Origin: a virus
Direction: 5' to 3' (one strand)
Virus record (IMG/VR): IMGVR_UViG_3300042355_000087
Span: 1-38,454 of that record
Length of the DNA: 38,454 nt
Positions 1 to 38,454 of this stretch are shown here, one piece after another; the first letter of the stretch is position 1; every line of letters begins with the position of its first letter. Position numbers and translations under genes: made by a program. The notes under the pieces are model-generated. The model searched no databases. It saw only the letters and a list, made by a program, of their open reading frames with translations, and was not told the DNA's origin.

Positions 1-211
1 CAGACTTATTGACACGCTCGACAACCTGACGGTCTGTAACGCGAGGGAGGATGCACAGTTTATGCTCCGCAAGGATGGGAGCCATTGCATTGTAAACATC
101 GTCAATACCGCGAAACTGGTATCTCTGCGCTTCGTTAGTTCTCTGTTTGGCAATCCCTGCTTTCGAGATCGCGCTCATCACCTTGCTTATTGCTTCGTAA
201 ACTTTCTGCAT
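1..211 (-). CDS. erf: Erf-family ssDNA-annealing protein, 5' part (second copy, cut by window start)
   Basis: This is the N-terminal part of an Erf-type single-strand annealing protein, read leftward from the ATG at 211-209 and cut off by the window start. Its 70 codons encode the same peptide as the start of the complete gene at 37812-38408. All nine nucleotide differences between the two copies inside the gene are silent: eight at third codon positions and one Arg AGA/CGA first-position change. I read it as the same gene seen at both ends of a circular genome, not as a second functional gene. Confidence 0.85.
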   Translation of the reverse strand, partial: MQKVYEAISKVMSAISKAGIAKQRTNEAQRYQFRGIDDVYNAMAPILAEHKLCILPRVTDRQVVERVNKS

Positions 212-257
212 ATCGTTTTATCCTGTAAAAACGTTCTATCTTATAAACAGGAACATC
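1..257. repeat. Left copy of 257-bp imperfect terminal repeat
   Basis: Bases 1-257 match 38198-38454 without gaps, with 11 mismatches (left coordinates 89, 92, 95, 124, 131, 140, 164, 173, 182, 245, 248). The repeat holds the 5' end of erf and its upstream region. The overlap implies a circular map; the mismatches imply that two alleles were joined. A true terminal repeat would normally be identical because it is copied at each replication cycle. Confidence 0.9.
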
Positions 258-377
258 ATCGTCCCATACAAAATCCCAAACACTATCGCCACTAACCAAT
301 CTATCAATAAGCTGATCTTCTTCTCTTTGCCTATCGTGTTCATATAGCATCCTGTCAAAATAATAATCTTCGTTCAT
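135..377 (-). CDS. Hypothetical acidic protein upstream of erf (80 aa)
   Basis: This is a leftward gene of unknown function. It has a strong Shine-Dalgarno sequence, GAGGTG about five bases before its ATG, which is the main reason to accept it. The protein is charged, with many Asp, Glu and Arg and several aromatic residues, and no membrane segment. Its 3' end overlaps the start of erf by 77 bases, more than usual, and erf-silent differences between the two genome ends change amino acids here (for example Gly/Ser at 182). The overlapped tail is therefore probably not under strong constraint. It would be the first gene of the leftward early operon. Confidence 0.6.
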   Translation of the reverse strand: MNEDYYFDRMLYEHDRQREEDQLIDRLVSGDSVWDFVWDDDVPVYKIERFYRIKRYAESLRSNKQGDERDLESRDCQTEN

Positions 378-454
378 ATTTCACCTCGTTTCACCACTAT
401 ATACGCCCTAAAACACAACGCTACAGCCAGCAGACGAAAGGTAGGTTTTACACG
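378..454. promoter_or_regulatory. Divergent early promoter region
   Basis: This 77-base gap separates the first leftward gene (start 377) from the first rightward gene (start 455), so early promoters for both blocks should lie here. On the minus strand there is a TATAGT element (plus 396-401), close to a sigma-70 -10 box, but no good -35 at 17 bases, and the resulting leader would be very short. I cannot assign promoters firmly. No operator-like inverted repeat stands out. Confidence 0.4.
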
Positions 455-769
455 ATGAGCGGCAAATCACCAACATCACGCAGCCTAGAGAAACTCAGGC
501 AAGACGGCTATCTCTGTCAGATCGTCGAGAAGTGGAACCCACATGCTCGCATCAGGCAGGACCTATTCGGAATTGGCGACATCTTAGCTATCAGGGACAC
601 GGAGACGCTGCTGGTGCAGACCACAAGCCGAGGGAATGTCAACGCAAGGATAAGGAAGATTGAGGAGTCGGAGCATCTGCCAGCGATCCTTAAGGCAGGA
701 TGGCGGATCGAGGTTCACGGATGGGGCAAGTTAAAAGCCGGGTGGACTTGCAAGGTGTTTGAATTCTGA
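455..769 (+). CDS. PD-(D/E)XK nuclease-like small protein (104 aa)
   Basis: This small protein resembles a family common in phages that looks like a minimal PD-(D/E)XK (restriction-endonuclease fold) domain. Visible pieces are an N-terminal helix, a conserved KWNPHARIRQDLFG stretch, GDILAI with Asp42, and a strand ending QTTS (residues 55-58) where the E-x-K half of the motif would normally sit. The change to Q-x-T/S may mean altered catalysis or an inactive DNA-binding fold. An AGGTAGG box precedes the ATG by about ten bases. It is the first gene of the rightward early block. The role is inferred: DNA processing or repair. Confidence 0.6.
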   Translation: MSGKSPTSRSLEKLRQDGYLCQIVEKWNPHARIRQDLFGIGDILAIRDTETLLVQTTSRGNVNARIRKIEESEHLPAILKAGWRIEVHGWGKLKAGWTCKVFEF

Positions 770-884
770 TTTAGACTCAAGATTGTTTTATCGCATCGGC
801 TAGGTTAGCTACCGAAAAGCAGACTCTTCACCTGCCTGCCGTTTGCACCTCATCAGTGAAGATGACTTTTTGAAGGAAAGTCTT

Positions 885-1502
885 ATGCAGATCAAGAACT
901 GGTCGAAGTTTCAGCATTTTCGCGACCGCAAACCACCGTGGATCAAGCTCTATCGTGACATTCTGGACGATAGGGAATGGCATAACCTTGAGCCAAAAGC
1001 AGCCAAAACGCTTGTCATGCTTTGGGTTATAGCTAGCGAGGACGATGGTCGTTTGCCCGACGAAGAAACCTTAGCTTTTAGGCTTAGATTGTCCATTCAG
1101 CAGCTGAGAAATGACATTTCAAGGCTAGATCATTGGCTGGTACGAGATGATATCGACTTGATATCAAGTGAATATCAACATGATGCTCTAGAGAGAGAGA
1201 CAGAGAAAGAGACAGAGAGAGAGGCAAACAAACTCCCCAAAGCTACGCGTCTCCCCGAAGATTGGATGCCGAGTGCAGACGATCTGGCTTTTATGGCAAA
1301 GGAAAGACCGGATCTGAATCCACAGCATGTCATTTTTAGTTTCAAAGCGTACTGGCTAGAGAAGAAAGGCCGAGATGCGGAGAAAAGGGATTGGTCACGA
1401 GCTTTCAAGAATTGGGTACTTAGAGAAAAGCGTGGCAATGCAGTTCAAGTTCAAGTAAGCAGCCCTTCAAACATGAACGATCTAAATCGGAGGGCAACGT
1501 AA
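885..1502 (+). CDS. Phage replication initiation / helicase-loader-like protein with DnaT-like C-terminus
   Basis: This is the likely replication initiator or helicase loader. The N-terminal half (residues about 1-85, WIKLYRDILDD onward) is a winged-helix-like domain of the type seen in phage replisome organisers. A charged linker rich in Glu-Arg-Glu-Thr follows. The C-terminal block (LPEDWMPSADD to AFKNWVLRE) resembles the ssDNA-binding domain of DnaT. I chose ATG 885, not the in-frame TTG at 843, because AAGGAAAG sits five bases before it; from there the protein is 205 residues. The helicase gene at 2921 completes a replication module. The linker DNA also contains iteron-like repeats. The 115 bases upstream hold only weak hairpins. 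Confidence 0.7.
   Translation: MQIKNWSKFQHFRDRKPPWIKLYRDILDDREWHNLEPKAAKTLVMLWVIASEDDGRLPDEETLAFRLRLSIQQLRNDISRLDHWLVRDDIDLISSEYQHDALERETEKETEREANKLPKATRLPEDWMPSADDLAFMAKERPDLNPQHVIFSFKAYWLEKKGRDAEKRDWSRAFKNWVLREKRGNAVQVQVSSPSNMNDLNRRAT
1149..1224. other. Candidate replication origin: 11-bp iterons plus homopurine tract
   Basis: Three near-copies of RATATCRA start at 1149, 1160 and 1171, exactly 11 bases apart, and the middle one lies in the palindrome TTGATATCAA. At 1190-1224 follows a 35-base tract of G and A broken by only two C residues (1201, 1213). An 11-base period is not a multiple of three, so the repeats do not come from a repeated peptide. The position inside the replication gene, between its two domains, parallels the origin in gene O of phage lambda. 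The origin role is inferred. Confidence 0.45.
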
Positions 1503-1789
1503 TGAAAGGCCACGACTTCGTCAACAACCTACAGCTTGCAGGCAAACCACCTAAAGCTGTTTTTATCGACTTTGTTGGAAAGCCAGACGATGACCCGGAG
1601 TATCCCGTTGTTGTCGTTGAGCCTAAAGACCGAGACTTTAGGTGGGTCAGAGGATTACGGGTGCATGTCAATGGAGGCGATCCTGACCACGTCCACTCTA
1701 TCTTGCAAGCTCTGAAAATATGTGCCCCGGCCCGCGTGATTGCTAACTACGGGCCCGGTCTGTATTGGGACTCGGAGGTGGACGCATGA
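1502..1789 (+). CDS. Hypothetical protein upstream of the DpdA-like gene (95 aa)
   Basis: I do not recognise this 95-residue soluble protein. It begins at an ATG overlapping the stop of the replication gene (TAATG) and ends four bases into the next gene, so it is translationally coupled on both sides. It has alternating hydrophobic stretches (VFIDFVG, PVVVVEP, LRVHVNG) suggesting a small alpha/beta fold, and no Cys pair or membrane segment. Tight coupling to the TGT-like gene suggests a shared function, but this rests only on position. Confidence 0.7.
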   Translation: MKGHDFVNNLQLAGKPPKAVFIDFVGKPDDDPEYPVVVVEPKDRDFRWVRGLRVHVNGGDPDHVHSILQALKICAPARVIANYGPGLYWDSEVDA

Positions 1790-2466
1790 TGCACTACCAC
1801 GGCACACCAATTACGCCGAGATCGGTGTTAGAAACGCTTGCTGGTGAGAACTTCTGTATTAGCTATGCAGAACCGAGAGACTTAAAAGTCTGTCTAAAAA
1901 TCGGTCAATCACTCATGTTAGATAACGGCGCTTTCTCTGCAAAAACACGGGGCATACCGTTTGATCCTAAAGGTTTTTATGATTGGCTAGATCCAATTTT
2001 GGGTCATCCGCATTGGGGTGTCGTTCCTGATGTCATTGACGGTAAAGAGGAAGAACAGAGACAACTAGTTAAAAGCTGGCCTTACCCCAAATCACTCGGC
2101 GTTCCTGTCTGGCATTTAGGTTTATCTCTCGACTATCTTTGCGAGCTTGTTGATAACTGGGGCAAGGTTTGCTTAGGTTCGTCTGGCGAATACTGGAATG
2201 TCGGTTCACAGAAATGGCAGTCTAGGATGGATGAGACTTTCAATCATTTGTCTAAAGTGTTTGGCAGATTGCCGTGGACTCACGGTATGCGAATGCTCGG
2301 TCAAGGTCTTGAGCGCTGGCCTTTATCAAGCGCTGATTCCACAAATCTTGCGCTCAATCACAAATCAATGAAAGAGTGTGCGTATTGCATCGCAAAGCGC
2401 ATTGACTCTGAAAACCCAACAACACAATGGTCGTTAAGACCTGTACAGGAGCATTTATGTTTTTAG
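1786..2466 (+). CDS. dpdA-like: TGT/DpdA-like 7-deazaguanine DNA transglycosylase (putative)
   Basis: This protein appears to be a compact TIM-barrel member of the tRNA-guanine transglycosylase superfamily, which swaps guanine for a 7-deazaguanine base; phage DpdA members act on DNA. Motifs occur in TGT order: LDNGAFS (like DSGGFQ), VPDVIDG, LGSSGEY (like GLAVGE), then MLGQG followed by ADSTN, where TGT has MGVG and the nucleophilic Asp. At about 226 residues it is much shorter than bacterial TGT (about 375) and lacks the C-terminal zinc site, which argues against tRNA use. ATG 1786 has GGAGG seven bases upstream. It overlaps a YhhQ-like transporter gene by ten bases, which supports the assignment. 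Homology is judged by eye only. Confidence 0.6.
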   Translation: MMHYHGTPITPRSVLETLAGENFCISYAEPRDLKVCLKIGQSLMLDNGAFSAKTRGIPFDPKGFYDWLDPILGHPHWGVVPDVIDGKEEEQRQLVKSWPYPKSLGVPVWHLGLSLDYLCELVDNWGKVCLGSSGEYWNVGSQKWQSRMDETFNHLSKVFGRLPWTHGMRMLGQGLERWPLSSADSTNLALNHKSMKECAYCIAKRIDSENPTTQWSLRPVQEHLCF

Positions 2467-2924
2467 CTATCGGTGTTTACGCATTTGCAATGACCGCAGC
2501 AAACTTAAGCGTAGCGGCATTTGGTCCAGCAATCAGTCCGCTTAATGCGTTTCTGTTTATAGGACTTGATCTTGTGCTCAGGGATTGGCTGCACGTTAAA
2601 TTAAAGCTGTGGCAGATGGGAGCTCTCATAGCATCTACAGGTTTTTTAACTTATTTGCTAAATCCTGCGTCAGGAAAGATTGCCATCGCATCTGCGGTTG
2701 CTTTTACAGCAGCGGCGATAGTTGATTGGTTTGTCTTTGCAAAGCTAAAAGGATCGTGGGTAAAGCGAGCGAACGGATCAAATGTAGCTGGTGCTGCGGT
2801 TGATTCCATCATCTTTCCGACTTTAGCTTTTGGTGTGCTGATGCCTCACATTGTCTTGTTACAGTTTGCCGCAAAGGTTTTTGGTGGATTTTTGTGGTCG
2901 ATGATTATTAGGAACAAAGCATGA
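2457..2924 (+). CDS. yhhQ-like: YhhQ/VUT-family queuosine-precursor transporter (short phage form)
   Basis: This is an integral membrane protein resembling the VUT/YhhQ family (COG1738), which imports preQ0 or preQ1. About five or six hydrophobic segments are visible (residues 2-22, 28-46, 52-70, 75-97, 112-127, 130-150). Family-like stretches are GLDLVLRDWLH near 36-46, IVDWFVFAKLKG near 88-99 and NVAGAAVDSIIF near 109-120. I chose ATG 2457 over the in-frame ATG 2427 because AGGAG lies five bases upstream and translation then starts directly in a membrane helix. It is 155 residues against about 220 for E. coli YhhQ. The ten-base overlap with the DpdA-like gene suggests joint production: the transporter would supply the base inserted into phage DNA. 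Confidence 0.75.
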   Translation: MFLAIGVYAFAMTAANLSVAAFGPAISPLNAFLFIGLDLVLRDWLHVKLKLWQMGALIASTGFLTYLLNPASGKIAIASAVAFTAAAIVDWFVFAKLKGSWVKRANGSNVAGAAVDSIIFPTLAFGVLMPHIVLLQFAAKVFGGFLWSMIIRNKA

Positions 2925-3838
2925 TCCTAGAAAACCTCGATTACAAGGCGTGGTACGAGCAGATGGAAGCATCTGTGAAAGTCAGGCCTGCCGCGGATTG
3001 TATGGACGACCTCATAGAAGAAATGAGGAACCCGTCCGAAGAGCCAAACATCGTCATGCCGTTTGAAAAACTCGCAGACAAGTTCACCTACCGCTTAGGT
3101 GAGGTCACTGTGCTTGCGGGGCAAAACGGATCTGGCAAAAGCCTTCTCGCGGGACAGATCGCTCTTCACCTGATCCATCAAAACCAAAAGGTAGTGATCG
3201 CTTCATTTGAGATGAAGCCCGTTCGGACACTCAAGCGGATGGTGAGGCAGTGGTCGCGGATGTCATTCCCGACATTACAGGCTCACGAGAAGTTCAAGGA
3301 ATGGGTTAAAGACAAACTTTGGTTCTACGATGTACAGGGAACTGTAAGTCCGCCTCAAGTCTTAGGAGTCGGGGTTTACTGCAAGACGATGTTGGGTTGC
3401 CAGCACTACTTCATTGACAGCCTAATGAAGTGCGTGAGAGGCGAGGACGATTACAACGCACAGAAAAATTTTACCGACGAGCTTTGCGGCCTTGCGAGAG
3501 ATCAGAATATTCACATTCATCTTGTCCACCATATCAGGAAACAGTCGGATGACAACAGAACACCCTCTAAAAACGATTTAAAGGGCTCTGGGAGCGTCGC
3601 AGATCAAGTGGACAACGTAATCCTCATGCACAGAAATAAATCGAAGGAGCGCGATTTTGAGGCCAATGGTGTAGTGGACCATTCCATCCCTGATGCCTTC
3701 CTATCTTTTGAGAAACAGAGGAACGGTGAATGGGAGGGCGTTGCGAAGCTCTGGTTCGACAGACAGAGCCAACAATACGTTCAAGAAGTTGGGGGATTGC
3801 CTACCGATTATCAGCTCAAATCAGCCGACCATCGGTAA
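2921..3838 (+). CDS. dnaB-like: DnaB-type replicative DNA helicase (RecA-like core only)
   Basis: This is a ring helicase core that would unwind phage DNA at the fork. Visible motifs are Walker A GQNGSGKS (residues 67-74), an EMKP stretch near 97, Walker B-like HYFIDSLMK, the HLVHHIRK motif, and GSGSVADQVDNVILMHR, the arginine-finger region of DnaB and T7 gp4. At 305 residues it lacks both the DnaB N-terminal domain and a primase domain, so priming probably depends on the host or on the DnaT-like protein at 885. The ATG overlaps the transporter stop (ATGA). Confidence 0.85.
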   Translation: MILENLDYKAWYEQMEASVKVRPAADCMDDLIEEMRNPSEEPNIVMPFEKLADKFTYRLGEVTVLAGQNGSGKSLLAGQIALHLIHQNQKVVIASFEMKPVRTLKRMVRQWSRMSFPTLQAHEKFKEWVKDKLWFYDVQGTVSPPQVLGVGVYCKTMLGCQHYFIDSLMKCVRGEDDYNAQKNFTDELCGLARDQNIHIHLVHHIRKQSDDNRTPSKNDLKGSGSVADQVDNVILMHRNKSKERDFEANGVVDHSIPDAFLSFEKQRNGEWEGVAKLWFDRQSQQYVQEVGGLPTDYQLKSADHR

Positions 3839-5100: not shown

Positions 5101-5342
5101 GCAAACAAGAACCTGTAGCGCATGTTTATCGGATTGAAGCAAATGGTAGACCTTGTGTCGCATGGGATGACGCAAGTGAAATTAAGGTTGGCGCAAAACT
5201 TTACGCTGCACCGCGTGAATGGGTTGGGCTGACGGATGAGGAACACGACAGCATAAAACACAATTATCACAACCTGACGTGGACCCTTGAAATGTTCGCC
5301 AGAGCCATTGAACAAGCCTTGAAGGAGAAGAATCATGGATAG
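5097..5342 (+). CDS. EWVGLTD-motif phage protein, copy 2 (81 aa)
   Basis: This 81-residue protein has an N-terminal MSKQEPVAHVYRIEANG block and KLYAAP just before REWVGLTDEE, then ends in a helix with Ala-Leu-Lys-Glu-Lys. That order (EPVA..., LY-AP, EWVGLTD) is the full form of the family, so this is probably the parental copy. It shares a 26-base identical stretch (5214-5239) with copy 3. The start is coupled to the previous stop (ATGA). The function is unknown. Confidence 0.7.
   Translation: MSKQEPVAHVYRIEANGRPCVAWDDASEIKVGAKLYAAPREWVGLTDEEHDSIKHNYHNLTWTLEMFARAIEQALKEKNHG
5214..5239 (+). repeat. 26-bp direct repeat, copy A (codes RE WVGLTD region)
   Basis: Bases 5214-5239 are identical to 5965-5990. 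Both encode the REWVGLTDD/E core in neighbouring small genes. Identity at silent sites points to recent duplication or gene conversion, not only to protein-level constraint. Confidence 0.8.
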
Positions 5343-5896: not shown

Positions 5897-6087
5897 GCAA
5901 ATTGAGACAAGCTGCGGAGCAAGAGCCTGTTGAATGTATGTGCGGCATTTGCAAGCTCGGCAAACGTGAATGGGTTGGGCTGACGGATGATGATTATGAG
6001 GAATTATTAAGGACTAGGGATTGGGGTGTTTATTTGATTGAAGCAGTCGAAGCCAAACTGAAGGAAAAGAATAATGAACGGCGCTGA
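5893..6087 (+). CDS. EWVGLTD-motif phage protein, copy 3 (64 aa)
   Basis: This is a shortened member of the EWVGLTD group: the N-terminal part is replaced by a Cys-containing MCGICKLG stretch, then REWVGLTDDD and a C-terminal VEAKLKEKN helix. The core is identical in DNA to copy 2 over 26 bases. It looks like a partial duplication that picked up a new start. The CMCGIC cluster could bind metal. The function is unknown. Confidence 0.65.
   Translation: MSKLRQAAEQEPVECMCGICKLGKREWVGLTDDDYEELLRTRDWGVYLIEAVEAKLKEKNNERR
5965..5990 (+). repeat. 26-bp direct repeat, copy B
   Basis: This is identical to 5214-5239 (see copy A) and lies 751 bases downstream in the third EWVGLTD gene. Confidence 0.8.
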
Positions 6088-6385
6088 AATCCAAAGAATG
6101 GCGCATAACCTCGGACTTGTTCACCACACCGATCAAGTCAAATGGCTAGTCAAACAGATTCTCCGCAAGCACAAACCGCTGACCAAAACTGAGAAGATCT
6201 ACCTTGCTCATCTTACCCAGCCTTACTCGCTCATCGAGTTGTCAAAGCACTTCGGCTGCACCACTGAAGGCGCAAGGAAGCACCTAAAAGCACTGATGGC
6301 AAAAGGTCTTGTCGATAGAGAGACTCGGTACAAATGGACGGAAGGCAGACACGGAGCGTGGGCGTGGTACTACTTCAAAAAATGA
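6074..6385 (+). CDS. Winged-helix transcriptional regulator-like protein
   Basis: This 103-residue protein has a winged helix in its second half: YSLIELSKHFGCTTEGARKH is the helix-turn-helix and LMAKGLVDRE leads into the wing. This matches MarR/ArsR-like small phage DNA-binding proteins. It overlaps the preceding gene by 14 bases and the next by four. Lying near the end of the early operon it could act in the early-to-late switch; that role is inferred. Confidence 0.65.
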   Translation: MNGAEIQRMAHNLGLVHHTDQVKWLVKQILRKHKPLTKTEKIYLAHLTQPYSLIELSKHFGCTTEGARKHLKALMAKGLVDRETRYKWTEGRHGAWAWYYFKK

Positions 6386-6564
6386 AAGACTACACCGCAG
6401 GGCATACCGTGTGGATGACGCCCAAAGACAAAACACCACCATTGGGTTCTAAGATGCTTTTACTGAATCCCGGTGGAGTCTGTGTAATCGGTCACTGGTC
6501 AGATTGGGCGGTAGCGTGGGCTCCATTGCCTAAAGTACCTGAGCATATAAAGGCGATGTTATGA
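6382..6564 (+). CDS. DUF551-like protein (60 aa)
   Basis: The protein resembles the DUF551 domain found in many phages: a TPP-(L)-GSKMLLL strand, a GHWSD turn and a closing WAPLPK. I start it at ATG 6382 (MKDYTAG), which overlaps the previous stop; the frame is open upstream only inside the preceding gene. The 60-residue length fits a single domain. No function is established for this domain. Confidence 0.65.
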   Translation: MKDYTAGHTVWMTPKDKTPPLGSKMLLLNPGGVCVIGHWSDWAVAWAPLPKVPEHIKAML

Positions 6565-6836
6565 ACGACCCAGTCAATCACCCCAAACACTACACCGAGC
6601 ACCCGTCTGGTGTGGAGTGCATCCAAATCACCGAGCACATGAGCTTCAACCTCGGCAACGCAGTTAAGTACATTTGGCGAGCGGATCTAAAAGGTAAGCA
6701 AGTCGAAGATCTCAAGAAAGCAGTGTGGTACATCAACCGAGAAATAGAAAGGATAAACAATGGATCTCAAAAAAGCAGCAAGGCAAGCGTATGTGAACAG
6801 TCTGACTCAGGATCTTACGGACTGGGACAAAATTGA
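6561..6836 (+). CDS. DUF3310 protein (T7 gp1.7-like family)
   Basis: The first 65 residues fit DUF3310: DPVNHPKHYT at the start, GVECIQITEHM, NAVKYIWRAD and DLKKAVWYINREIER. The family includes T7 gp1.7, reported as a nucleotide kinase; whether this copy is active is unknown. The last 25 residues are Ser-rich, do not look like the family, and overlap the next gene by 77 bases, so this tail is probably tolerated extra sequence. Confidence 0.8.
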   Translation: MNDPVNHPKHYTEHPSGVECIQITEHMSFNLGNAVKYIWRADLKGKQVEDLKKAVWYINREIERINNGSQKSSKASVCEQSDSGSYGLGQN

Positions 6837-6945
6837 ATTGCAATTTGAAGAGCTAGAAGAAATGTCTGCCGAGCTTGAGGAAAGAAGCAAGGCCCTACTA
6901 AAGTCTATAGAAGCATTCAAAAAGGATCTTGATTCCAAACACTGA
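6760..6945 (+). CDS. Small coiled-coil protein (61 aa)
   Basis: This 61-residue acidic protein is almost wholly helical, with heptad-like Leu/Glu spacing (LQFEELEEMSAELEERSKAL), so a coiled coil is likely. AAGGA lies about seven bases before its ATG. It overlaps the DUF3310 gene by 77 bases and is the last gene before the terminator at 6988. Confidence 0.6.
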   Translation: MDLKKAARQAYVNSLTQDLTDWDKIELQFEELEEMSAELEERSKALLKSIEAFKKDLDSKH

Positions 6946-6987
6946 CAGCCGTACAATGAATTTAGACCTCCTTCCCTCTGTTGGTTT

Positions 6988-7012
6988 GCCCTCGCAATGA
7001 GGGCTTTTTTTT
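6988..7012 (+). terminator. Rho-independent terminator of the early operon
   Basis: A perfect six-base stem GCCCTC/GAGGGC with a five-base loop (GCAAT) is followed directly by eight T residues. It lies 43 bases after the last early gene and just before the late genes, so it should end early transcription. Confidence 0.9.
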
Positions 7013-7022
7013 AGGTCTCGAC

Positions 7023-7424
7023 ATGAAAAAGCATTTTCTGGAAGCACTGCGATCAGAGAAGCCCGCTAAGTCCCCGGGCGAGTTCATTATGTGCTTGCTC
7101 CACGGTGTCACCAACGCACACATCCTGCATCTACAGTCTAAGTCTTACGCAGAGCACAAGGCTCTAGGACATTTCTACGATGACCTCGGTGATTTAGTGG
7201 ACACAGTCGTTGAGCAGTATCAAGGGCTAGAGGCTAAGATCCTTAACTACCCTGTCGAGTACCGAGCGCCAGAACAAACAGCGATAGCCGAGCTTGAGTA
7301 CATGCTGGAGTATGTGAGGGTTTACCGAAGCTCGATGGGTGATGACTCAGCCATCCAGAACAGTATTGACGAGATCGTTGCGCTCATGCAGTCAACACTT
7401 TACAAACTCAGATTCCTTAAGTAA
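7023..7424 (+). CDS. DUF5856-like, ferritin-fold phage protein
   Basis: This helical protein of 133 residues has a HILHLQSKSYAEHKALGHFY segment followed by VDTVVEQYQG, a pattern I associate with the phage DUF5856 family, whose four-helix shape recalls Dps/ferritin. Regular His and Glu residues (His52-type HLQSK, YAEHKAL) could bind metal, but this is not shown. I chose ATG 7023 because the longer TTG frame begins inside the terminator hairpin. The ribosome site is weak (TTAGGT). It is the first gene after the early terminator. Confidence 0.65.
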   Translation: MKKHFLEALRSEKPAKSPGEFIMCLLHGVTNAHILHLQSKSYAEHKALGHFYDDLGDLVDTVVEQYQGLEAKILNYPVEYRAPEQTAIAELEYMLEYVRVYRSSMGDDSAIQNSIDEIVALMQSTLYKLRFLK

Positions 7425-7807
7425 TGCCGAGAACCCCGAAGCAAACAACATGTCGAGAGCTCGGTTGTAATAATCCAAAGGTAAACGGATCAACGTTCTG
7501 CAATGACCACGGCGGCTCACTCACAGAAACCAGACGATCATTCAATAAGCTGTACAACACAAAGCAATGGAAGCAATTCAGACAGATCCAGCTGTCTAAG
7601 CACCCGATCTGCGCTCGATGTCAGTCAGTAGGAAAGATCGCACCAGCCCATCACGTTGACCACATCATCCCGCACAAGCAAGACAGGGACAAATGGATGG
7701 GCAATAGGTTCCAAAGCCTCTGCCACGAGTGCCACTCCATAAAAACAGGGCTTGAGAAGAAAGGCGAGGCTCACGATTATGTGAGGGGCGAAGTGATTGC
7801 TCTGTAG
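7424..7807 (+). CDS. HNH endonuclease near the terminase
   Basis: This is an HNH nuclease with structural zinc sites. Visible motifs are C63-x-x-C66, the HHVDHIIPH core (residues 76-84), Asn94, and C100-x-x-C103-H104, plus an N-terminal Cys/His cluster (C10, C15, C26, H29). Nucleases of this type beside terminase genes, such as HK97 gp74, assist packaging-site cutting, so a role in DNA packaging is likely. The start overlaps the previous stop (TAATG). The 79 bases after it contain an AGGGC/GCCCT hairpin without a T tract. Confidence 0.9.
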   Translation: MPRTPKQTTCRELGCNNPKVNGSTFCNDHGGSLTETRRSFNKLYNTKQWKQFRQIQLSKHPICARCQSVGKIAPAHHVDHIIPHKQDRDKWMGNRFQSLCHECHSIKTGLEKKGEAHDYVRGEVIAL

Positions 7808-7886
7808 AATTGGGAATAACTTAAAAAAAAGTGGCGATACTGAAGGGCAAGCGCGGCCCTAACTTTCTGCAAAAGGATAAAACAAG

Positions 7887-9065
7887 ATGGGTAGGACAAA
7901 AAAACAGGGAATTCCCTCAGTCGTCATGACTCGCGTGGGGGATCTCATCCCTTACGCAAGGAATTCCCGAACGCACTCAGACGAGCAAGTTGCGCAGATC
8001 GCTGCGTCGATAAAAGAGTTTGGTTGGACTAACCCGATCCTGATCGACGGCGAGAAAGGAATCATTGCTGGCCACGGAAGGCTGAAGGCTGCGATGCGGT
8101 TAGGCCTCGAGGAAATCCCGGCAATAGAACTGTCGCACCTAACCGAGATTCAAAAGAAAGCGCTCATCATTGCTGACAACAAGTTGGCTTTAAATGCCGA
8201 ATGGGATACGGAGCTTCTCAGTCTGGAGGTTGAGGAGTTGGAGCTTGAGGGATTAGACTTAAGTCTTACAGGCTTTGGCGAAGAGGAAATAAGCGCACTT
8301 AAACCAGAGGTTGTAAACGAGGGATTGACCGACGAGGATGCTGTCCCTGAGCCTCCACCGGAGCCTATTACAAAGCCCGGAGACATCTGGATACTAGGCA
8401 AGCACCGATTGATGTGCGGCGATAGCACGAGCGTGGATGCGGTTGATAAATTGTTAAATGGCGCGACTATAGATTTGATTCATACCGATCCTCCTTATGG
8501 CATAGGCTATGGAGGGTCTATGAAACTAGGGTCGGAAAAGTTTGGATGGAAACAGCATTCTGGAGGCTGGGATGAAGAAAGGCCTCCAAAAGAATTTTTT
8601 GATTTAGCTGAACTGCAATGCAAAGACAGGATTATTTGGGGCGGGAATTATTTTTCAGACTTGTTGCCTCCAACTATGGGATGGCTTGTTTGGGACAAAG
8701 GTCAAAGAGGATTTTCTTTAGCTGACGGTGAAATGGCGTGGACTTCTTTTAATAATGCGATGAGAATCAAAGAATATGCAAGGGCTAAGGCAAATCAAGA
8801 AGAAAAACATCACGCAACCCAAAAGCCTATTGAGGTCATAGAATGGGCTATAGGATACGCAGACAGGCATGCAAAAAAACAACCGCGACTCATACTTGAT
8901 TTTTTTGGTGGATCAGGTTCAACTTTAATTACTTGCGAAAAATTGGGTCGCATAAACTTTACGATGGAACTAGACCCAAAATACTGCGATGTCATTGTCA
9001 AGCGATGGGAAGAATTCACCGGACAGAAAGCGAGGCTAGAAAATGCAGCGGAAATATCCACCTGA
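7887..9065 (+). CDS. ParB-domain DNA methyltransferase fusion
   Basis: Residues about 10-90 form a ParB/sulfiredoxin-like domain (NSRTHSDEQ, IIAGHGRLKAA). After an acidic Pro-rich linker comes a beta-class N6-adenine or N4-cytosine DNA methyltransferase with DPPY (residues 201-204) before the SAM motif DFFGGSGST (about 338-346). Such fusions protect phage DNA from restriction or regulate packaging. AAAGGATAAA precedes the ATG. The methylase half from about 8450 to 8990 reads more AT-rich than the ParB half, suggesting separate origins. It overlaps TerS by 23 bases. Confidence 0.9.
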   Translation: MGRTKKQGIPSVVMTRVGDLIPYARNSRTHSDEQVAQIAASIKEFGWTNPILIDGEKGIIAGHGRLKAAMRLGLEEIPAIELSHLTEIQKKALIIADNKLALNAEWDTELLSLEVEELELEGLDLSLTGFGEEEISALKPEVVNEGLTDEDAVPEPPPEPITKPGDIWILGKHRLMCGDSTSVDAVDKLLNGATIDLIHTDPPYGIGYGGSMKLGSEKFGWKQHSGGWDEERPPKEFFDLAELQCKDRIIWGGNYFSDLLPPTMGWLVWDKGQRGFSLADGEMAWTSFNNAMRIKEYARAKANQEEKHHATQKPIEVIEWAIGYADRHAKKQPRLILDFFGGSGSTLITCEKLGRINFTMELDPKYCDVIVKRWEEFTGQKARLENAAEIST

Positions 9066-9516
9066 AGTTCACTTAGTACACGGCACAAAGGGAGAGAACA
9101 CGGGCATCCCATTGCCGGAGAAGGTAAAGATCAGAGTTCCGTTTGCCGAGTGGGCAGACAATCCGGCTTTATTTAACCGCGAGAGGTTTGTAAAAGAGAC
9201 CGCAGATTACTTGTTCGATGTCTACGGTATCGGTTCAGATCAGGACAGGCACACGCTGATGATGCTTGCCGACCAGCTACAGCTTTACATCGACGCAAGG
9301 AAAGAGCAGGCAAAGCATCCTTTAGTGGTTAAGACTAACGGTGGAAAGACTCACGCTCCCAATCCTTACATCAGTCTGGCAAACAAAGCGATGGAGAACT
9401 CCATCAAGCTGATGAACGAGATGGGGCTTACTCCGCGTTCTCGATTGGCGGCAAACAAACTTGAGGATGGCTCTAAGATGGGCGAATTCCTTGCGGGGCC
9501 TAAGTTCGGCACATGA
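9043..9516 (+). CDS. terS: Terminase small subunit (P27-like)
   Basis: This 157-residue protein fits the P27-type small terminase subunit in position and style: a helical core with DRHTLMMLADQLQLYIDARKE, a conserved PNPYISLANKAMENSIKLMNEMGLTP block and the closing SRL motif. It would recognise packaging sites and stimulate TerL. Its start lies within the methyltransferase gene and its stop overlaps the TerL start (ATGA). Confidence 0.85.
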   Translation: MQRKYPPEVHLVHGTKGENTGIPLPEKVKIRVPFAEWADNPALFNRERFVKETADYLFDVYGIGSDQDRHTLMMLADQLQLYIDARKEQAKHPLVVKTNGGKTHAPNPYISLANKAMENSIKLMNEMGLTPRSRLAANKLEDGSKMGEFLAGPKFGT

Positions 9517-11171
9517 GAATAGAAGATGGTATTGCTTACGCTGTCGGCATCGTAAAAGGCGAGATCGACGCTTGTCGAAATGTTCGCCTAGCCTGCCAGC
9601 GGTTCTTAAATCACATAGAAAACAAAGAGTGGGAATGGGTTTTTGATCCGAGTCCTGTCAATCACTTTCTACAGTTTGCAGGTCTATGCAGGCATGTCAA
9701 AGGACAGTGGGCGGGATACTCTGTAAGCCTTGAGCCCTTCCAGATCCTTATTGCCTGCGCGATCTACGGCTTTAGACACAAGAAAGACCGACGTAAACGG
9801 ATGGTGCAGGATGTCATTGTTTACATCCCTAGAAAGGCTGGTAAATCGACACTGACTGCTCTTATCGCACTTTATGAGCTGGCCTTCGGGGAAGCTGGTG
9901 CAGAGGTCTACACCCTCGCTACAAACAGAGATCAAGCCTCAATCGTGTTTACTACGGCTAAGGGCTTCGTCGAAACGTTGCCGCAGGAGATCTCGAGGCT
10001 CTTTATTCCCGGCAAGTTCACGATTGTGAAGAACGGCGACAGCCAGAGCATGATGAAAGCTCTCTCCAGAGACACTAAAAAGACTGGAGACGGGCTCAAC
10101 CCTTCTTGCGCGATCATTGACGAGGCGAGTCAGATCGTAGACAGGAATGCGATTGAGGTCTTGCATTCGGGGATGGTATCTCGACTCAATCCTCTTAGGC
10201 TATACATAACGACTGCTTCTTTCACCCGCGATACAAAGTTCTTCGAGGACTTTCAGGTGATGGAGCACATCCTCCATCAGGACGTACCTGATAACCCGCG
10301 ATGGTTTGGCCTTCTTTACTCGCTGGATGCCGGTGATGATTGGAGAGACGAAAAGGTATGGGCTAAAGCTAACCCGATGCACAATATCTCTGTGTCGCAC
10401 GATGCAATCGTTGCTCGATGCGAAGAAGCGAAGATTAAGCCCGCTGCGCTCAACGAGTTTCTCTGCAAGACGCTTAACGTTTATGTTTCAGCCGAGACTG
10501 CGTGGGTTGACCGTACACATTGGGATGAATCCGTAGGGCTAACAGAGAGAGAACCCGAAGCTGTATTTATCGGATTTGACCTAGCAGCAACACGAGATCT
10601 AAACGCGGTTTGTACGTTAAAGCGATTTGCCGAGGACGATTACGAAGCCGAGTGGAAGTTCTTTCTTCCCGAAGATGGCTTTGAATTACTACCCACTCAC
10701 TATCAAGACATCTTTAGACAAGCAATCAATTCGGGGATCTTGCACATCACCGAAGGTAACGTGATGGACGATAGAGAGATTTCGGCGTATATTATCGCGC
10801 AAAGCCAGAAATACGACATAAAAGAAGTAGGCTACGACGCATATAATGCTGCGGCTTTGGTAGCAAGGCTGTACGAAGTCGGAATGCCGGTAAAGAAAGT
10901 CGGTCAAGGAATGGCGGTGCTTTCTAACCCGTCTAAGCATGTCGAGCGACTTATCTTAGGCCACAAGATCAGACACGACGGAAACCCATTCTTAGGACAT
11001 CAACTGGGCAATTGCGAAGTGTTTACGGACGTTCAAGGAAACATTAAGGTCAAGAAAGCCGGTGTGGATAAGCACGCTAAGGTTGACGGCATAATTGCCT
11101 TGATTATTGCGATGCATTGCAGTCTGGACAACCCGATGCCTAATGAATCGTACGGATTCAGAGTCTTTTAG
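9513..11171 (+). CDS. terL: Terminase large subunit (HK97-like, Terminase_1)
   Basis: This is the packaging ATPase and nuclease, 552 residues. The Walker A-like site is RKAGKS (107-112), with Walker B SCAIIDEAS near 210. The RNase H-like nuclease begins at IGFDLAATRDLNA (about 353-365), continues with EVGYDAYNAA and ends near KVDGIIALIIAM, giving the expected acidic residues. Length and order match the HK97/Terminase_1 type. It is coupled to TerS and lies nine bases before the portal gene. Confidence 0.95.
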   Translation: MRIEDGIAYAVGIVKGEIDACRNVRLACQRFLNHIENKEWEWVFDPSPVNHFLQFAGLCRHVKGQWAGYSVSLEPFQILIACAIYGFRHKKDRRKRMVQDVIVYIPRKAGKSTLTALIALYELAFGEAGAEVYTLATNRDQASIVFTTAKGFVETLPQEISRLFIPGKFTIVKNGDSQSMMKALSRDTKKTGDGLNPSCAIIDEASQIVDRNAIEVLHSGMVSRLNPLRLYITTASFTRDTKFFEDFQVMEHILHQDVPDNPRWFGLLYSLDAGDDWRDEKVWAKANPMHNISVSHDAIVARCEEAKIKPAALNEFLCKTLNVYVSAETAWVDRTHWDESVGLTEREPEAVFIGFDLAATRDLNAVCTLKRFAEDDYEAEWKFFLPEDGFELLPTHYQDIFRQAINSGILHITEGNVMDDREISAYIIAQSQKYDIKEVGYDAYNAAALVARLYEVGMPVKKVGQGMAVLSNPSKHVERLILGHKIRHDGNPFLGHQLGNCEVFTDVQGNIKVKKAGVDKHAKVDGIIALIIAMHCSLDNPMPNESYGFRVF

Positions 11172-13436: not shown

Positions 13437-14786
13437 ATGTTGGAAAAAGTCATTGAAAAACTGGATGCAATCGAAGCATCTAGCGCTGCCAAATTGGCAG
13501 AAACCGCTCAGGCCGTCGAAGTAAAAGTTGCTGAGGCTGTCGAGGCGCTTAAGACCGAAACCGAAGCAAAGATTGCCGCATTAGAGGCAAAAGTTGCCGC
13601 TCCTTCGATCATCCGTCCTATTCACAAGACCGTGCGTGGCGAAGCAAATCGTCGCTTCAAAGACGTTCTTAAGGAGTACGTTAAGGCCGGTAACAACATC
13701 GAGCGCGAAGTCAAGATCTTTGAATCTGTGGATCAGTGCGAAGCGTACATCAAGGAAGCCTCAGCTCTTACGGCTTCGGGTTACGACGTAGGTGGCCGTA
13801 CCGCTTACGATCCCGTTTTCGCTGCAAAGCGTCTCGGAAACCCTTTGATGGATCTGTCGCGCATCGTTGCAACTGACGGCTCGGCTTATCAGTTCCGCGT
13901 CAAGACCGGTAATGCAGGTGCTCAGTGGGGCTACACCGTTCAGAACAACGGCACACCCACGACTGAAGCCACAAGCATTTGGCAGGTGATCCTTAAGGAC
14001 TTGAACGCGCAGTTCCCCATCCGTACCGCAGCACTTGATGACATCGACGGCCTTGAGGCTAACGTTGTTGACGATATGTTGATGGAGTTCCAGCAGGCAA
14101 TGGCAACCTCGATGATCCAGAACAACGATCAGTCGGGCACCGGAACCTCGGTAACGACGGGTGGCGCTGATGGTCTGCGCGGTTTGGATCAGTACGCTGG
14201 TGCAAACAGCACCTACACGGGCGGCTCTTGCTCAACAGCTTCGTTCGGCACTTCGGGAACTGCAACCACCAACGGTTTGCATAACCTTGCTACCTACGAT
14301 CAGCTTACGACCAACGCCAACACGGTTGCAGCTAACAATATCGTCTACAAAGATGTTGTTAACTTCATCTACAGCCTGCCACAGCAGTATTGGACTCCCA
14401 GCGCAGCGTTCATGATTAACCCGATCCTGCTTCAGGGCATCCGTGGTCTCGTGGACGATCAGAAGCGTCCGATCTACATCGACGGTCTGTCACGCACTGA
14501 TGGCATCGTTGGTGAGTTGCTCGGCTTCAAGGTTGCAGTCAACAAGTACCTTGACAACCCCAGCCAGCCCACCACCGGCGCAGCAGGAACTACGTCCTAC
14601 TATCCAATGTATTTCGGCGACTGGCAACAGTTCCACACCATCGTTATGCGTCTCTCGATGGTCCTCCGTCGCTACGACCAGACGCTCCCCGGTTCGATCA
14701 CGTTCTACGGCGAGACTCGTGCAGCTACTTCGGTGCGCGATCCTAATGCCGGTGTGCGTTATCGCTCGACTGGTACGGCTGCTTGA
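13437..14786 (+). CDS. Major capsid protein (HK97 fold)
   Basis: This is the main shell protein, 449 residues. Residues 1-60 form a Glu/Ala/Lys coiled coil, the expected delta (scaffold) domain to be removed by the protease. The HK97-fold body follows, with ASALTASGYDVGG at the start of the mature part, RTAALDDIDGLEANVVDD (spine-helix region) and a beta-rich C-terminus ending in VRDPNAGVRYR. AGGAG stands eight bases before the ATG. A related second capsid gene lies immediately downstream. Confidence 0.92.
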   Translation: MLEKVIEKLDAIEASSAAKLAETAQAVEVKVAEAVEALKTETEAKIAALEAKVAAPSIIRPIHKTVRGEANRRFKDVLKEYVKAGNNIEREVKIFESVDQCEAYIKEASALTASGYDVGGRTAYDPVFAAKRLGNPLMDLSRIVATDGSAYQFRVKTGNAGAQWGYTVQNNGTPTTEATSIWQVILKDLNAQFPIRTAALDDIDGLEANVVDDMLMEFQQAMATSMIQNNDQSGTGTSVTTGGADGLRGLDQYAGANSTYTGGSCSTASFGTSGTATTNGLHNLATYDQLTTNANTVAANNIVYKDVVNFIYSLPQQYWTPSAAFMINPILLQGIRGLVDDQKRPIYIDGLSRTDGIVGELLGFKVAVNKYLDNPSQPTTGAAGTTSYYPMYFGDWQQFHTIVMRLSMVLRRYDQTLPGSITFYGETRAATSVRDPNAGVRYRSTGTAA

Positions 14787-14790
14787 TAAA

Positions 14791-14815
14791 AGAGGGCGAA
14801 AGCCCTCTCCCTTTT
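14791..14815 (+). terminator. Hairpin between the two capsid genes (terminator or attenuator)
   Basis: A perfect seven-base stem AGAGGGC/GCCCTCT with a GAAA tetraloop begins four bases after the capsid stop and is followed by CCCTTTT. With only four T residues it is probably a partial terminator or mRNA 3'-end stabiliser that lowers expression of the downstream capsid paralogue. GGAGAG for the next gene lies directly after it. Confidence 0.75.
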
Positions 14816-14824
14816 GGAGAGATT

Positions 14825-15853
14825 ATGAAACAGGTTATTTTGGAAGGCTTGAAAAAGGCTCTCCACGAGGGCAAAAGCACTGTCAACCTCGCGGAAGCCT
14901 CGGCCCTAACCGGCTCAGGCAGCGGGGTTGGTGGTCGCGTTTATAACGAGGATGTGTTTGCATCGCTTCGTTACTGGAACCCATTTCGGGTTTATGCAAA
15001 TCAGACAATGACGGCAGACTCGGATATTCAGTTTGTTGTCAAAACAGGTAACGCTGCTAACTCCACAAACCCGTGGGGCTACACGGTTAACGCTAACTCA
15101 GGCTCACCCAACATCGCCACATCCATCTGGCAGCTTCCGATGCGTGTTATCTCCGCTCAGATGCCAATCAGGGCTGCGGCGATGGATGACATCAACGGAT
15201 TAGATGCGGCACTTGTCGAAGATCTCGCAATGGAATTCAGCCAGATCGAAGCCGCGTCAATGGCAATCAATAACGATCAGGCAGGCTCTACAACAACCTC
15301 CACAGGCGCTACAAACGGCCTTAGAGGCTTGAAGATGTACGCGGGTACTGCTGGATCATCCGCTGCTTACGGAACGTCAGGAACGGCCATTACAGCAGGC
15401 ATACACACCCTTAATACCGTGGGTTATACGCACTCAGGTGGTATTGAGTGGGAAAGCCTTGTAGACGTTGCCAGCGCTCTTCCCGGTCAGTTCTGGAGAA
15501 TGCCCGGAACCGCGTGGATGATGCACCCGACAGCTATTGCGACGCTTAGAGAATACGCTCACGGTGGTAATTCTTATGCACTTGTCGAGACAGGCGAGAA
15601 AGACGAAGGCCCCGGTGTAAATATTATGGGCTGGCCGGTAATTGCTAATCCTTATTTGGATGCTCCCGCAATCGGCGCTTCTCCGATCTATCTTGCAAAC
15701 TGGCCGCGGTTTATGTGGATCGTCGATCACTCGGAGATGACGCTTCAGAGAATGGAGCAGACCCAGCCGGGAACGATTACGATATATGCTGAGAAGCGGA
15801 TGGTCTCGACCGTTCGTGATGTAACTGCCGGTGTACGTTTGATCGGAACCTAA
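14825..15853 (+). CDS. Second major-capsid-like protein (paralogue without delta domain)
   Basis: This 342-residue protein is a clear paralogue of the capsid protein just upstream. Both share ASALT-(A/G)-SG, (F)-VKTGNA, WGYTV, ATSIWQ, A-(L/M)-DDI-(D/N)-GL, NNDQ, GLRGL--YAG and GTSGTA in the same order, and similar C-termini (TVRDVTAGVRLIGT). It lacks the N-terminal coiled coil and some loops. ATG 14825 with GGAGAG is preferred over the TTG at 14783, which lies upstream of the hairpin. It may form pentamers, as T4 gp24 does beside gp23, or an alternative shell subunit. Confidence 0.85.
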   Translation: MKQVILEGLKKALHEGKSTVNLAEASALTGSGSGVGGRVYNEDVFASLRYWNPFRVYANQTMTADSDIQFVVKTGNAANSTNPWGYTVNANSGSPNIATSIWQLPMRVISAQMPIRAAAMDDINGLDAALVEDLAMEFSQIEAASMAINNDQAGSTTTSTGATNGLRGLKMYAGTAGSSAAYGTSGTAITAGIHTLNTVGYTHSGGIEWESLVDVASALPGQFWRMPGTAWMMHPTAIATLREYAHGGNSYALVETGEKDEGPGVNIMGWPVIANPYLDAPAIGASPIYLANWPRFMWIVDHSEMTLQRMEQTQPGTITIYAEKRMVSTVRDVTAGVRLIGT

Positions 15854-37405: not shown

Positions 37406-37815
37406 ACGGCTATGAATTGATGAATAGGAATATGAACACAAGGAACAACATCATCGGGATCTCCTCTGTCTGTGCGGCCTCCGGGCTTAATTGTGTAACC
37501 GGGGCGAAACGTCCAATACTTCATCGTGTCTGACCACTGGACGACTAAGAGCGCCAGTCGTTGAGAGGCGTTTTGTATGTTGATGCCAGCCTCAAACTTC
37601 GCAAAGTCCAACATGTAGGTGTTGTAGTCCGTTGACTTACAAGTTCTCGTTTTGACTTCGATCCATCTCACGAGCTGACCGTTCTGGTAAGCAGCAAAGT
37701 CCATTTCGTAGAATTTGGGAAGTCGATAAATGTCGTAGTGAAAGCGATCAGCAAATGCTTGTGCAGCAGCTAGCTCTCGCTTTCTATCAAGTTCTGTTTC
37801 GTAAACAGGTCTCAC
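37402..37815 (-). CDS. PD-(D/E)XK nuclease-like protein (137 aa)
   Basis: Residues Asp39 (MDFAAY), Glu53 and Lys55 (WIEVKTRT) form the D-x(n)-E-x-K pattern of restriction-like nucleases such as Holliday-junction resolvases. The start is GTG 37815, overlapping the Erf stop (GTGA). The C-terminus is Pro/Gly/His-rich. A role in resolving or trimming recombination intermediates is inferred from motif and operon. Confidence 0.72.
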   Translation of the reverse strand: MRPVYETELDRKRELAAAQAFADRFHYDIYRLPKFYEMDFAAYQNGQLVRWIEVKTRTCKSTDYNTYMLDFAKFEAGINIQNASQRLALLVVQWSDTMKYWTFRPGYTIKPGGRTDRGDPDDVVPCVHIPIHQFIAV

Positions 37816-38408
37816 AGTCCTAACTCCTTCTTGCGTTTGTCTTTGGCTGCTTCAATTTGTTTTACAAGGTCAGGCGATTTCTTGTGCTTGATAAAAACTT
37901 CCTCATAAACCTTTCTGAGATCTTCTTTCTTAGCACTCGCGATCTTCTCAAGATCCTTGTCAAAGTTGGATTCAGACATTACTTCGTGAGTCTGATTCTC
38001 ACTGTCGTTATCGCCCTCTGTTGGGATGCAAAAGGCCTGCATGAGAGCGTACTTGTAAGCCGCTGACATTGCTTTATTAGTTGCCTTATCACCTGAGTCC
38101 ATAGCCTCGCCAATCGTCGATATAACGTGGCTAGAGCCATCTTCGCCGGAGACTAAAGCAAACTCCATTGAGACGGTGACATAGAACAAAGCAGTCCCAG
38201 ACTTATTGACACGCTCGACAACCTGACGGTCTGTAACGCGAGGGAGGATGCACAGTTTATGCTCCGCAAGGATGGGAGCCATTGCGTTATAGACATCGTC
38301 AATACCGCGAAACTGGTATCGCTGCGCCTCGTTAGTCCTCTGTTTGGCAATCCCTGCTTTGGAGATCGCACTCATCACTTTGCTTATTGCTTCGTAAACT
38401 TTCTGCAT
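37812..38408 (-). CDS. erf: Erf-family single-strand annealing recombinase
   Basis: This 198-residue protein is an Erf-type annealing recombinase. Family features are the N-terminal YEAISKVMSAISKAGIAK, YQFRGIDDVYNAMAPILAEH, and GEAMDSGDKATNKAMSAAYKYALMQAFCIPTE (about residues 103-134), including the Gly-rich and Ala-Tyr-Lys-Tyr-Ala motifs. The C-terminal tail is Lys-rich and probably binds DNA. It pairs with the exonuclease at 35868 and SSB. AGGA precedes the ATG by nine bases. A partial second copy lies at 1-211. Confidence 0.9.
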   Translation of the reverse strand: MQKVYEAISKVMSAISKAGIAKQRTNEAQRYQFRGIDDVYNAMAPILAEHKLCILPRVTDRQVVERVNKSGTALFYVTVSMEFALVSGEDGSSHVISTIGEAMDSGDKATNKAMSAAYKYALMQAFCIPTEGDNDSENQTHEVMSESNFDKDLEKIASAKKEDLRKVYEEVFIKHKKSPDLVKQIEAAKDKRKKELGL

Positions 38409-38454
38409 ATCGTTTTATCCTGTAAAAACGTTCTATCTTATGAAGAGGAACATC
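38198..38454. repeat. Right copy of 257-bp imperfect terminal repeat
   Basis: This matches 1-257 with 11 mismatches. It continues past the erf start into the upstream region and stops at the window end, in line with a circular genome of about 38.2 kb opened inside erf. Confidence 0.9.

Follow-up and report, generated by a model that had tools for sequence, protein, structure and literature searches.

Our analysis indicates that the two ends of the window, by which we mean the entire 38,454-base viral record, are very probably one stretch of the genome read twice, once from each of two related strains in a community, and that the phage has a circular map of about 38,197 bases that was opened inside the erf gene. 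The record would comprise one full turn of this circularly mapping genome, opened by the assembler within erf, and its first and last 257 bases would represent the same genome place in two strains of the community. The end repeat itself most likely arose in assembly and does not reflect a repeat in the viral genome. Once imperfect end overlaps of this kind are recognised, a record that lacks an exact end repeat can be treated as a near-complete circular map, and the overlaps provide a quick hint of strain mixture. Here, they yield a genome of about 38.2 kb and remove a false second start of erf. For a phage biologist, the candidate cos site and the gene-swap site described below are more useful than the repeat.

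Copy A of the overlap, at the record start (1..257), and copy B, at the record end (38198..38454), are identical at 246 of 257 positions and align without gaps. The 11 mismatches lie at window positions 89, 92, 95, 124, 131, 140, 164, 173, 182, 245 and 248. This match had been described in the original prediction and was borne out: when the outer 1500 bases of each end were compared by blastn (E=4e-119), it was never longer than 257 bases, and it touches the record's first and last bases. It ranks first by E-value among the internal matches of the window, followed by a 323-base match of 65% within 27.8–29.2 kb, in a tail-fibre gene. The longest exact run common to both ends is 88 bases. In a passage of their report, the CheckV authors state that end repeats of k-mer length mark circular templates, and they use a repeat of at least 20 bp at the start and end (PMC8116208). 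No exact end repeat of at least 20 bp was present in the window, where the last of the 11 mismatches lies 10 bases from the end. The window is thus not a standard DTR contig, although one of its relatives (G001) is. Like the DTR contigs of that passage, it has one genome stretch at both contig ends and a circular map, but its repeat is imperfect and longer than a k-mer, and the overlap joins two alleles instead of repeating one. A separate 29-base direct repeat with one mismatch was observed at 5214–5242 and 5965–5993.

The complete erf gene is located on the minus strand at 37812..38408, on the side of copy B, and encodes a 198-residue single-strand annealing protein (phrog_155, E=4e-35; Pfam ERF PF04404, E=8e-23). 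Its product scores 81.5 bits, above the cut-off of 25, and belongs to the Pfam ERF family. On the side of copy A, the gene is cut by the record start, leaving 70 residues on the minus strand at 2..211. Nine of the 11 differing sites are inside erf and all nine are synonymous, as had been predicted; for nine changes drawn at random with this transition/transversion mix, the probability that all are silent in erf is about 9e-6. This pattern bears on the possibility that a single strain was assembled and that sequencing or consensus errors, where coverage is low near the ends, produced the 11 differences. Contig ends are indeed prone to errors, but the uniformly silent changes in erf argue against such an origin, as does the finding that, among 32 relatives, every one of the 22 site states is carried by two relatives or more. 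We therefore consider errors a highly improbable source of the differences.

The differences are, nevertheless, not silent in every frame. An 80-residue ORF without a family match, on the minus strand at 135..377, lies upstream of erf and overlaps its first 77 bases (135–211) in a different frame. Four sites that are silent in erf, 140, 164, 173 and 182, alter the product of this ORF (N/D, E/Q, R/C and G/S, respectively). The original prediction that sites 245 and 248 change this product holds, but they are not the sole altering sites, and its heading that all coding differences are silent was wrong, since six of the 11 sites alter the product. The window and 27 relatives make up 28 rows, 25 of which retain the full 80-residue frame. 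In pairwise counts, which are not independent, 42% of the single-base codon differences in the ORF outside the overlap are synonymous, against 17% by chance, whereas inside the overlap the value is 8% against an expected 18%. Given the intact frame and the synonymous excess outside the overlap, the ORF probably represents a true gene, and the pattern of changes indicates that the erf frame rules inside the overlap.

The allele tables comprised 32 relatives, two of them over 222 bases only; L015, with 77% erf identity, was left out, and the diverged contig 3300047275_000618, without an erf anchor, was left out of both the allele and the swap-site counts. Both the A and the B base were found at all 11 sites among these relatives, each of them in two contigs or more. 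Together with the silent pattern in erf, this upholds the original view of two natural alleles and not sequencing error. Neither allele was found whole in any of the 32 relatives, the nearest of which differ by 8 bases from A and by 4 bases from B. All four base combinations occur at 19 of the 55 site pairs, which would fit recombination or repeated change.

Contigs that share an IMG metagenome number, which by the naming convention we take to come from one sample, provide a measure of the variation within a community. Six such pairs, from four metagenomes, show 11/257, 12/257, 20/257, 14/257, 15/257 and 10/222 differences, and the 11/257 between A and B are similar to these values (10–20 of 222–257 bases). 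The median difference over all 496 pairs of relatives is 5%, and pairs from one sample differ about as much as the rest. Copies A and B would accordingly fit two neighbours of one community. The originally proposed co-occurrence of two strains gains support from the similar differences within metagenomes, and the presence of both strains in this very sample is the part that we infer.

The joint between the two ends was examined in related contigs. An erf-protein scan of viral contigs gave at least 80 loci, of which L003–L022 were aligned to the window; L003–L016 are the closest among the matches listed. Thirteen of these 14 closest relatives cross the joint, from the start side beyond 257 to the end side before 38198, and carry a single erf; the exception, L006, stops within the 257-base segment. 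In whole-record searches, the segment was matched once in each of 34 relative records (14/14 and 20/20), most of which are fragments, so that some say little (the match covers only 21 bases in G033, and is 75% over 172 bases in G013). The 37,643-base record of L003 contains the segment once as well, and was opened elsewhere, at about window 5.5 kb. This record has a perfect 127-base terminal repeat, giving a circle of 37,516 bases, and since it closes at a different place, the phage map is, judging from these sequences, circular, and here about 38.2 kb. The originally predicted circular closure with a genome of about 38,197 bases is therefore well supported by the crossing contigs, the single match per record and the circular relative. 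The named phages do not decide on the joint, since megablast with window 1–25000 found none, and a distant search with window 37800–38454 gave only matches of 71–76% inside erf, in three records.

Another possibility would be a real diverged direct repeat, either as imperfect 257-base terminal repeats of linear virion DNA or as a duplicated start of erf. Both copies are indeed contained in a single record. However, the relatives, most of them fragments, have one match each and cross the joint with one copy, the copies stop exactly at both record ends, and the recurrent contig termini are located elsewhere, at 7847/7858. Terminal repeats that are copied from each other at replication are, moreover, expected to be identical. 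A real repeat is consequently very unlikely, and one genome stretch read from two strains remains the preferred reading.

For such a two-strain overlap, the failure of the circle to close may be explained by the length of exact identity: the longest exact match of the ends, 88 bases, is shorter than the 127-base overlap that closed a relative, and an assembler that needed 127 bases would leave such a circle open. The position of the break may reflect a difference among strains of the community in a swap site, located 121–197 bases beyond the end. A contig end was observed within 140 bases upstream of erf in four of 13 relatives with a complete erf, compared with 0.16 expected (P=1.2e-5), the 140-base distance having been chosen after the ends were known. 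Both ends of the window fall within strain-specific sequence, and to explain the exact end points would therefore take more than a single branching of the assembly graph. The window could also be a mosaic of several strains throughout, which becomes visible only at the ends. Contigs that differ by 4–8% in the 257-base segment co-occur in four metagenomes, and microdiversity has been reported to break up short-read assemblies (PMC6487183), in line with such a mosaic. Against it, the window is collinear with its relatives over the aligned parts, which is nevertheless compatible with a mosaic. We regard a mosaic throughout as rather unlikely, and it overlaps with the two-strain explanation.

The swap site (378..454) lies between a divergent gene on the plus strand at 455–769 and ORF 135–377 on the minus strand. 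It was scored in 27 relatives (L003, L005, L007 and L009 are examples), five contigs that end before the site being left unscored. The window and 10 relatives have an empty site of 77 bases, in which GAGGT, resembling a ribosome site, precedes the ATG, and the site is filled in the other 17 relatives. All 17 filled sites contain one small ORF and a common leader, which is present in none of the 10 empty ones. In the filled sites, a T-run directly precedes the ATG of ORF 135–377, and in 16 of the 17 a short hairpin precedes the T-run. The swap ORFs are of five kinds, found in 7, 5, 2, 2 and 1 contigs, with no mutual similarity better than E=0.1 in BLASTP among the five kinds and no Pfam match above the cut-off. 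One kind matches phrog_18717, of unknown function (E=7e-5), and has 19 further relatives with 31–57% identity in other viral contigs; among these 21 loci, erf is present in the available flanks only in the two that belong to this phage group. The diverged contig 3300047275_000618 also carries one of the swap genes.

Three of the four metagenomes represented by several contigs contain contigs that differ at the swap site. Filled and empty sites occur together in 3300042881 and 3300044626, and two different genes in 3300035681. Variable islands, like microdiversity, are reported to interrupt assemblies made from short reads (PMC6487183). We tentatively propose, giving the idea a little less than an even chance, that phages of this group maintain a site beside erf for the exchange of one gene at a time, occupied by any of five or more unrelated small genes (58–88 aa) or by none, that coexisting strains hold different genes, and that the contig break occurs here for this reason. 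Phage morons are cassettes of one gene that carry control signals of their own. The swap site resembles them in holding one unrelated small ORF at a time, with a common leader and a terminator-like end. If the proposal is correct, a swap locus beside recombination genes could serve quickly exchanged factors against the host or in competition between phages. Within a limited literature search, based on parts of the sources, no description of an exchange site upstream of erf was found, which does not imply that none exists.

A tie between allele B and a filled swap site was also considered and dropped. In the relatives that could be read first, position 245 distinguished the empty from the filled sites, but this separation was lost with more contigs, and the only readable contig with the C/C of allele B at 248/245 has an empty site. 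G/T at these positions is found in five of 10 empty sites compared with one of 17 filled ones (Fisher P=0.015, with relatedness ignored).

The contig ends near erf might instead be the physical ends of the packaged DNA, since the contigs of four of the 13 relatives also stop within 140 bases upstream of the gene. Those four stops are scattered, however, at window positions 222, 302, 313 and 350, and in the 27 relatives that are readable there the contig continues past the swap site. In addition, the base-exact common contig ends are at 7847/7858, beside the HNH and terminase genes. With contigs running through erf and exact ends elsewhere, we rejected this explanation as having hardly any probability.

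The ends at 7847/7858 delimit a candidate cos site of 10 bases, CAAGCGCGGC, at 7848..7857. Four contigs of relatives, with two sequence backgrounds, end exactly at 7847 and one ends exactly at 7858, while a sixth ends near the site on both sides, at 7840 and 7877. Overall, 14 of 23 records match 7424–8300: six end at 7840–7877, three read through the site (G032, G001 and G013), four enter other sequence and one ends earlier. The site adjoins an HNH endonuclease gene on the plus strand at 7424..7807 (phrog_144, E=5e-26). The genes of the terminase small subunit (9043–9516; phrog_83, E=1.5e-13) and large subunit (9513–11171; phrog_9, E=9e-131) follow on the plus strand. Between the candidate cos site and the small subunit gene, 7887–9065 encodes a 392-residue ParB/methyltransferase product, which is ParB-like in its first part and has DNA methyltransferase matches over most of its length.

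The cos overhangs are 10 nt in HK97 and 12 nt in lambda. If a 10-nt 3' overhang was trimmed when the libraries were made, a 10-base gap such as the one observed would result. A passage of one report describes, for HK97, cos packaging, the stimulation of cos cutting by an HNH protein and 3' overhangs of 12 nt (PMC9410871), its sentence being the reverse of the lengths given above. As in the HK97-type phages of that passage, the HNH gene was found beside the terminase genes, with the recurrent contig ends and both terminase subunits in one neighbourhood, and the 10-base gap would fit trimmed 3' overhangs; the window differs in having the ParB/methyltransferase gene between the candidate cos site and the small subunit gene. 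These features suggest that packaging probably leaves the genome with cos ends near 7848–7857, in which case it would be linear in the virion, so that "circular" probably refers to the intracellular or assembly map. A branch in the assembly graph could also stop contigs at 7847, given that the sequences just before it form two backgrounds. Moreover, some of the contigs ending at 7847/7858 may come from linked samples, and two of them are identical in their counts over the 257-base segment. Since the window crosses 7848–7857, the reads behind it would have come in part from circular or concatemeric DNA, or from annealed ends.

Annotation was partial: of the 187 ORFs, PHROGs searches covered 30 proteins and Pfam searches 10. 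Relatives of the terminase large subunit, with 68–70% identity, were found in three MAG contigs, out of 26 candidate stretches, labelled Alphaproteobacteria, Gammaproteobacteria and Holosporales. No host is claimed on this basis, as these labels disagree and may be binning errors. A 233-residue product encoded at 1765–2466 matches queuine tRNA-ribosyltransferase (phrog_887, E=1e-42), and its gene adjoins replication genes. In L014, positions 357–3434 contain an inverted duplication that matches window 6073–7732 in both orientations and is perhaps an assembly artefact. The adjacent genes at 13437–14786 and 14783–15853 both match phrog_10, the major head protein, and are possibly two capsid paralogues side by side.
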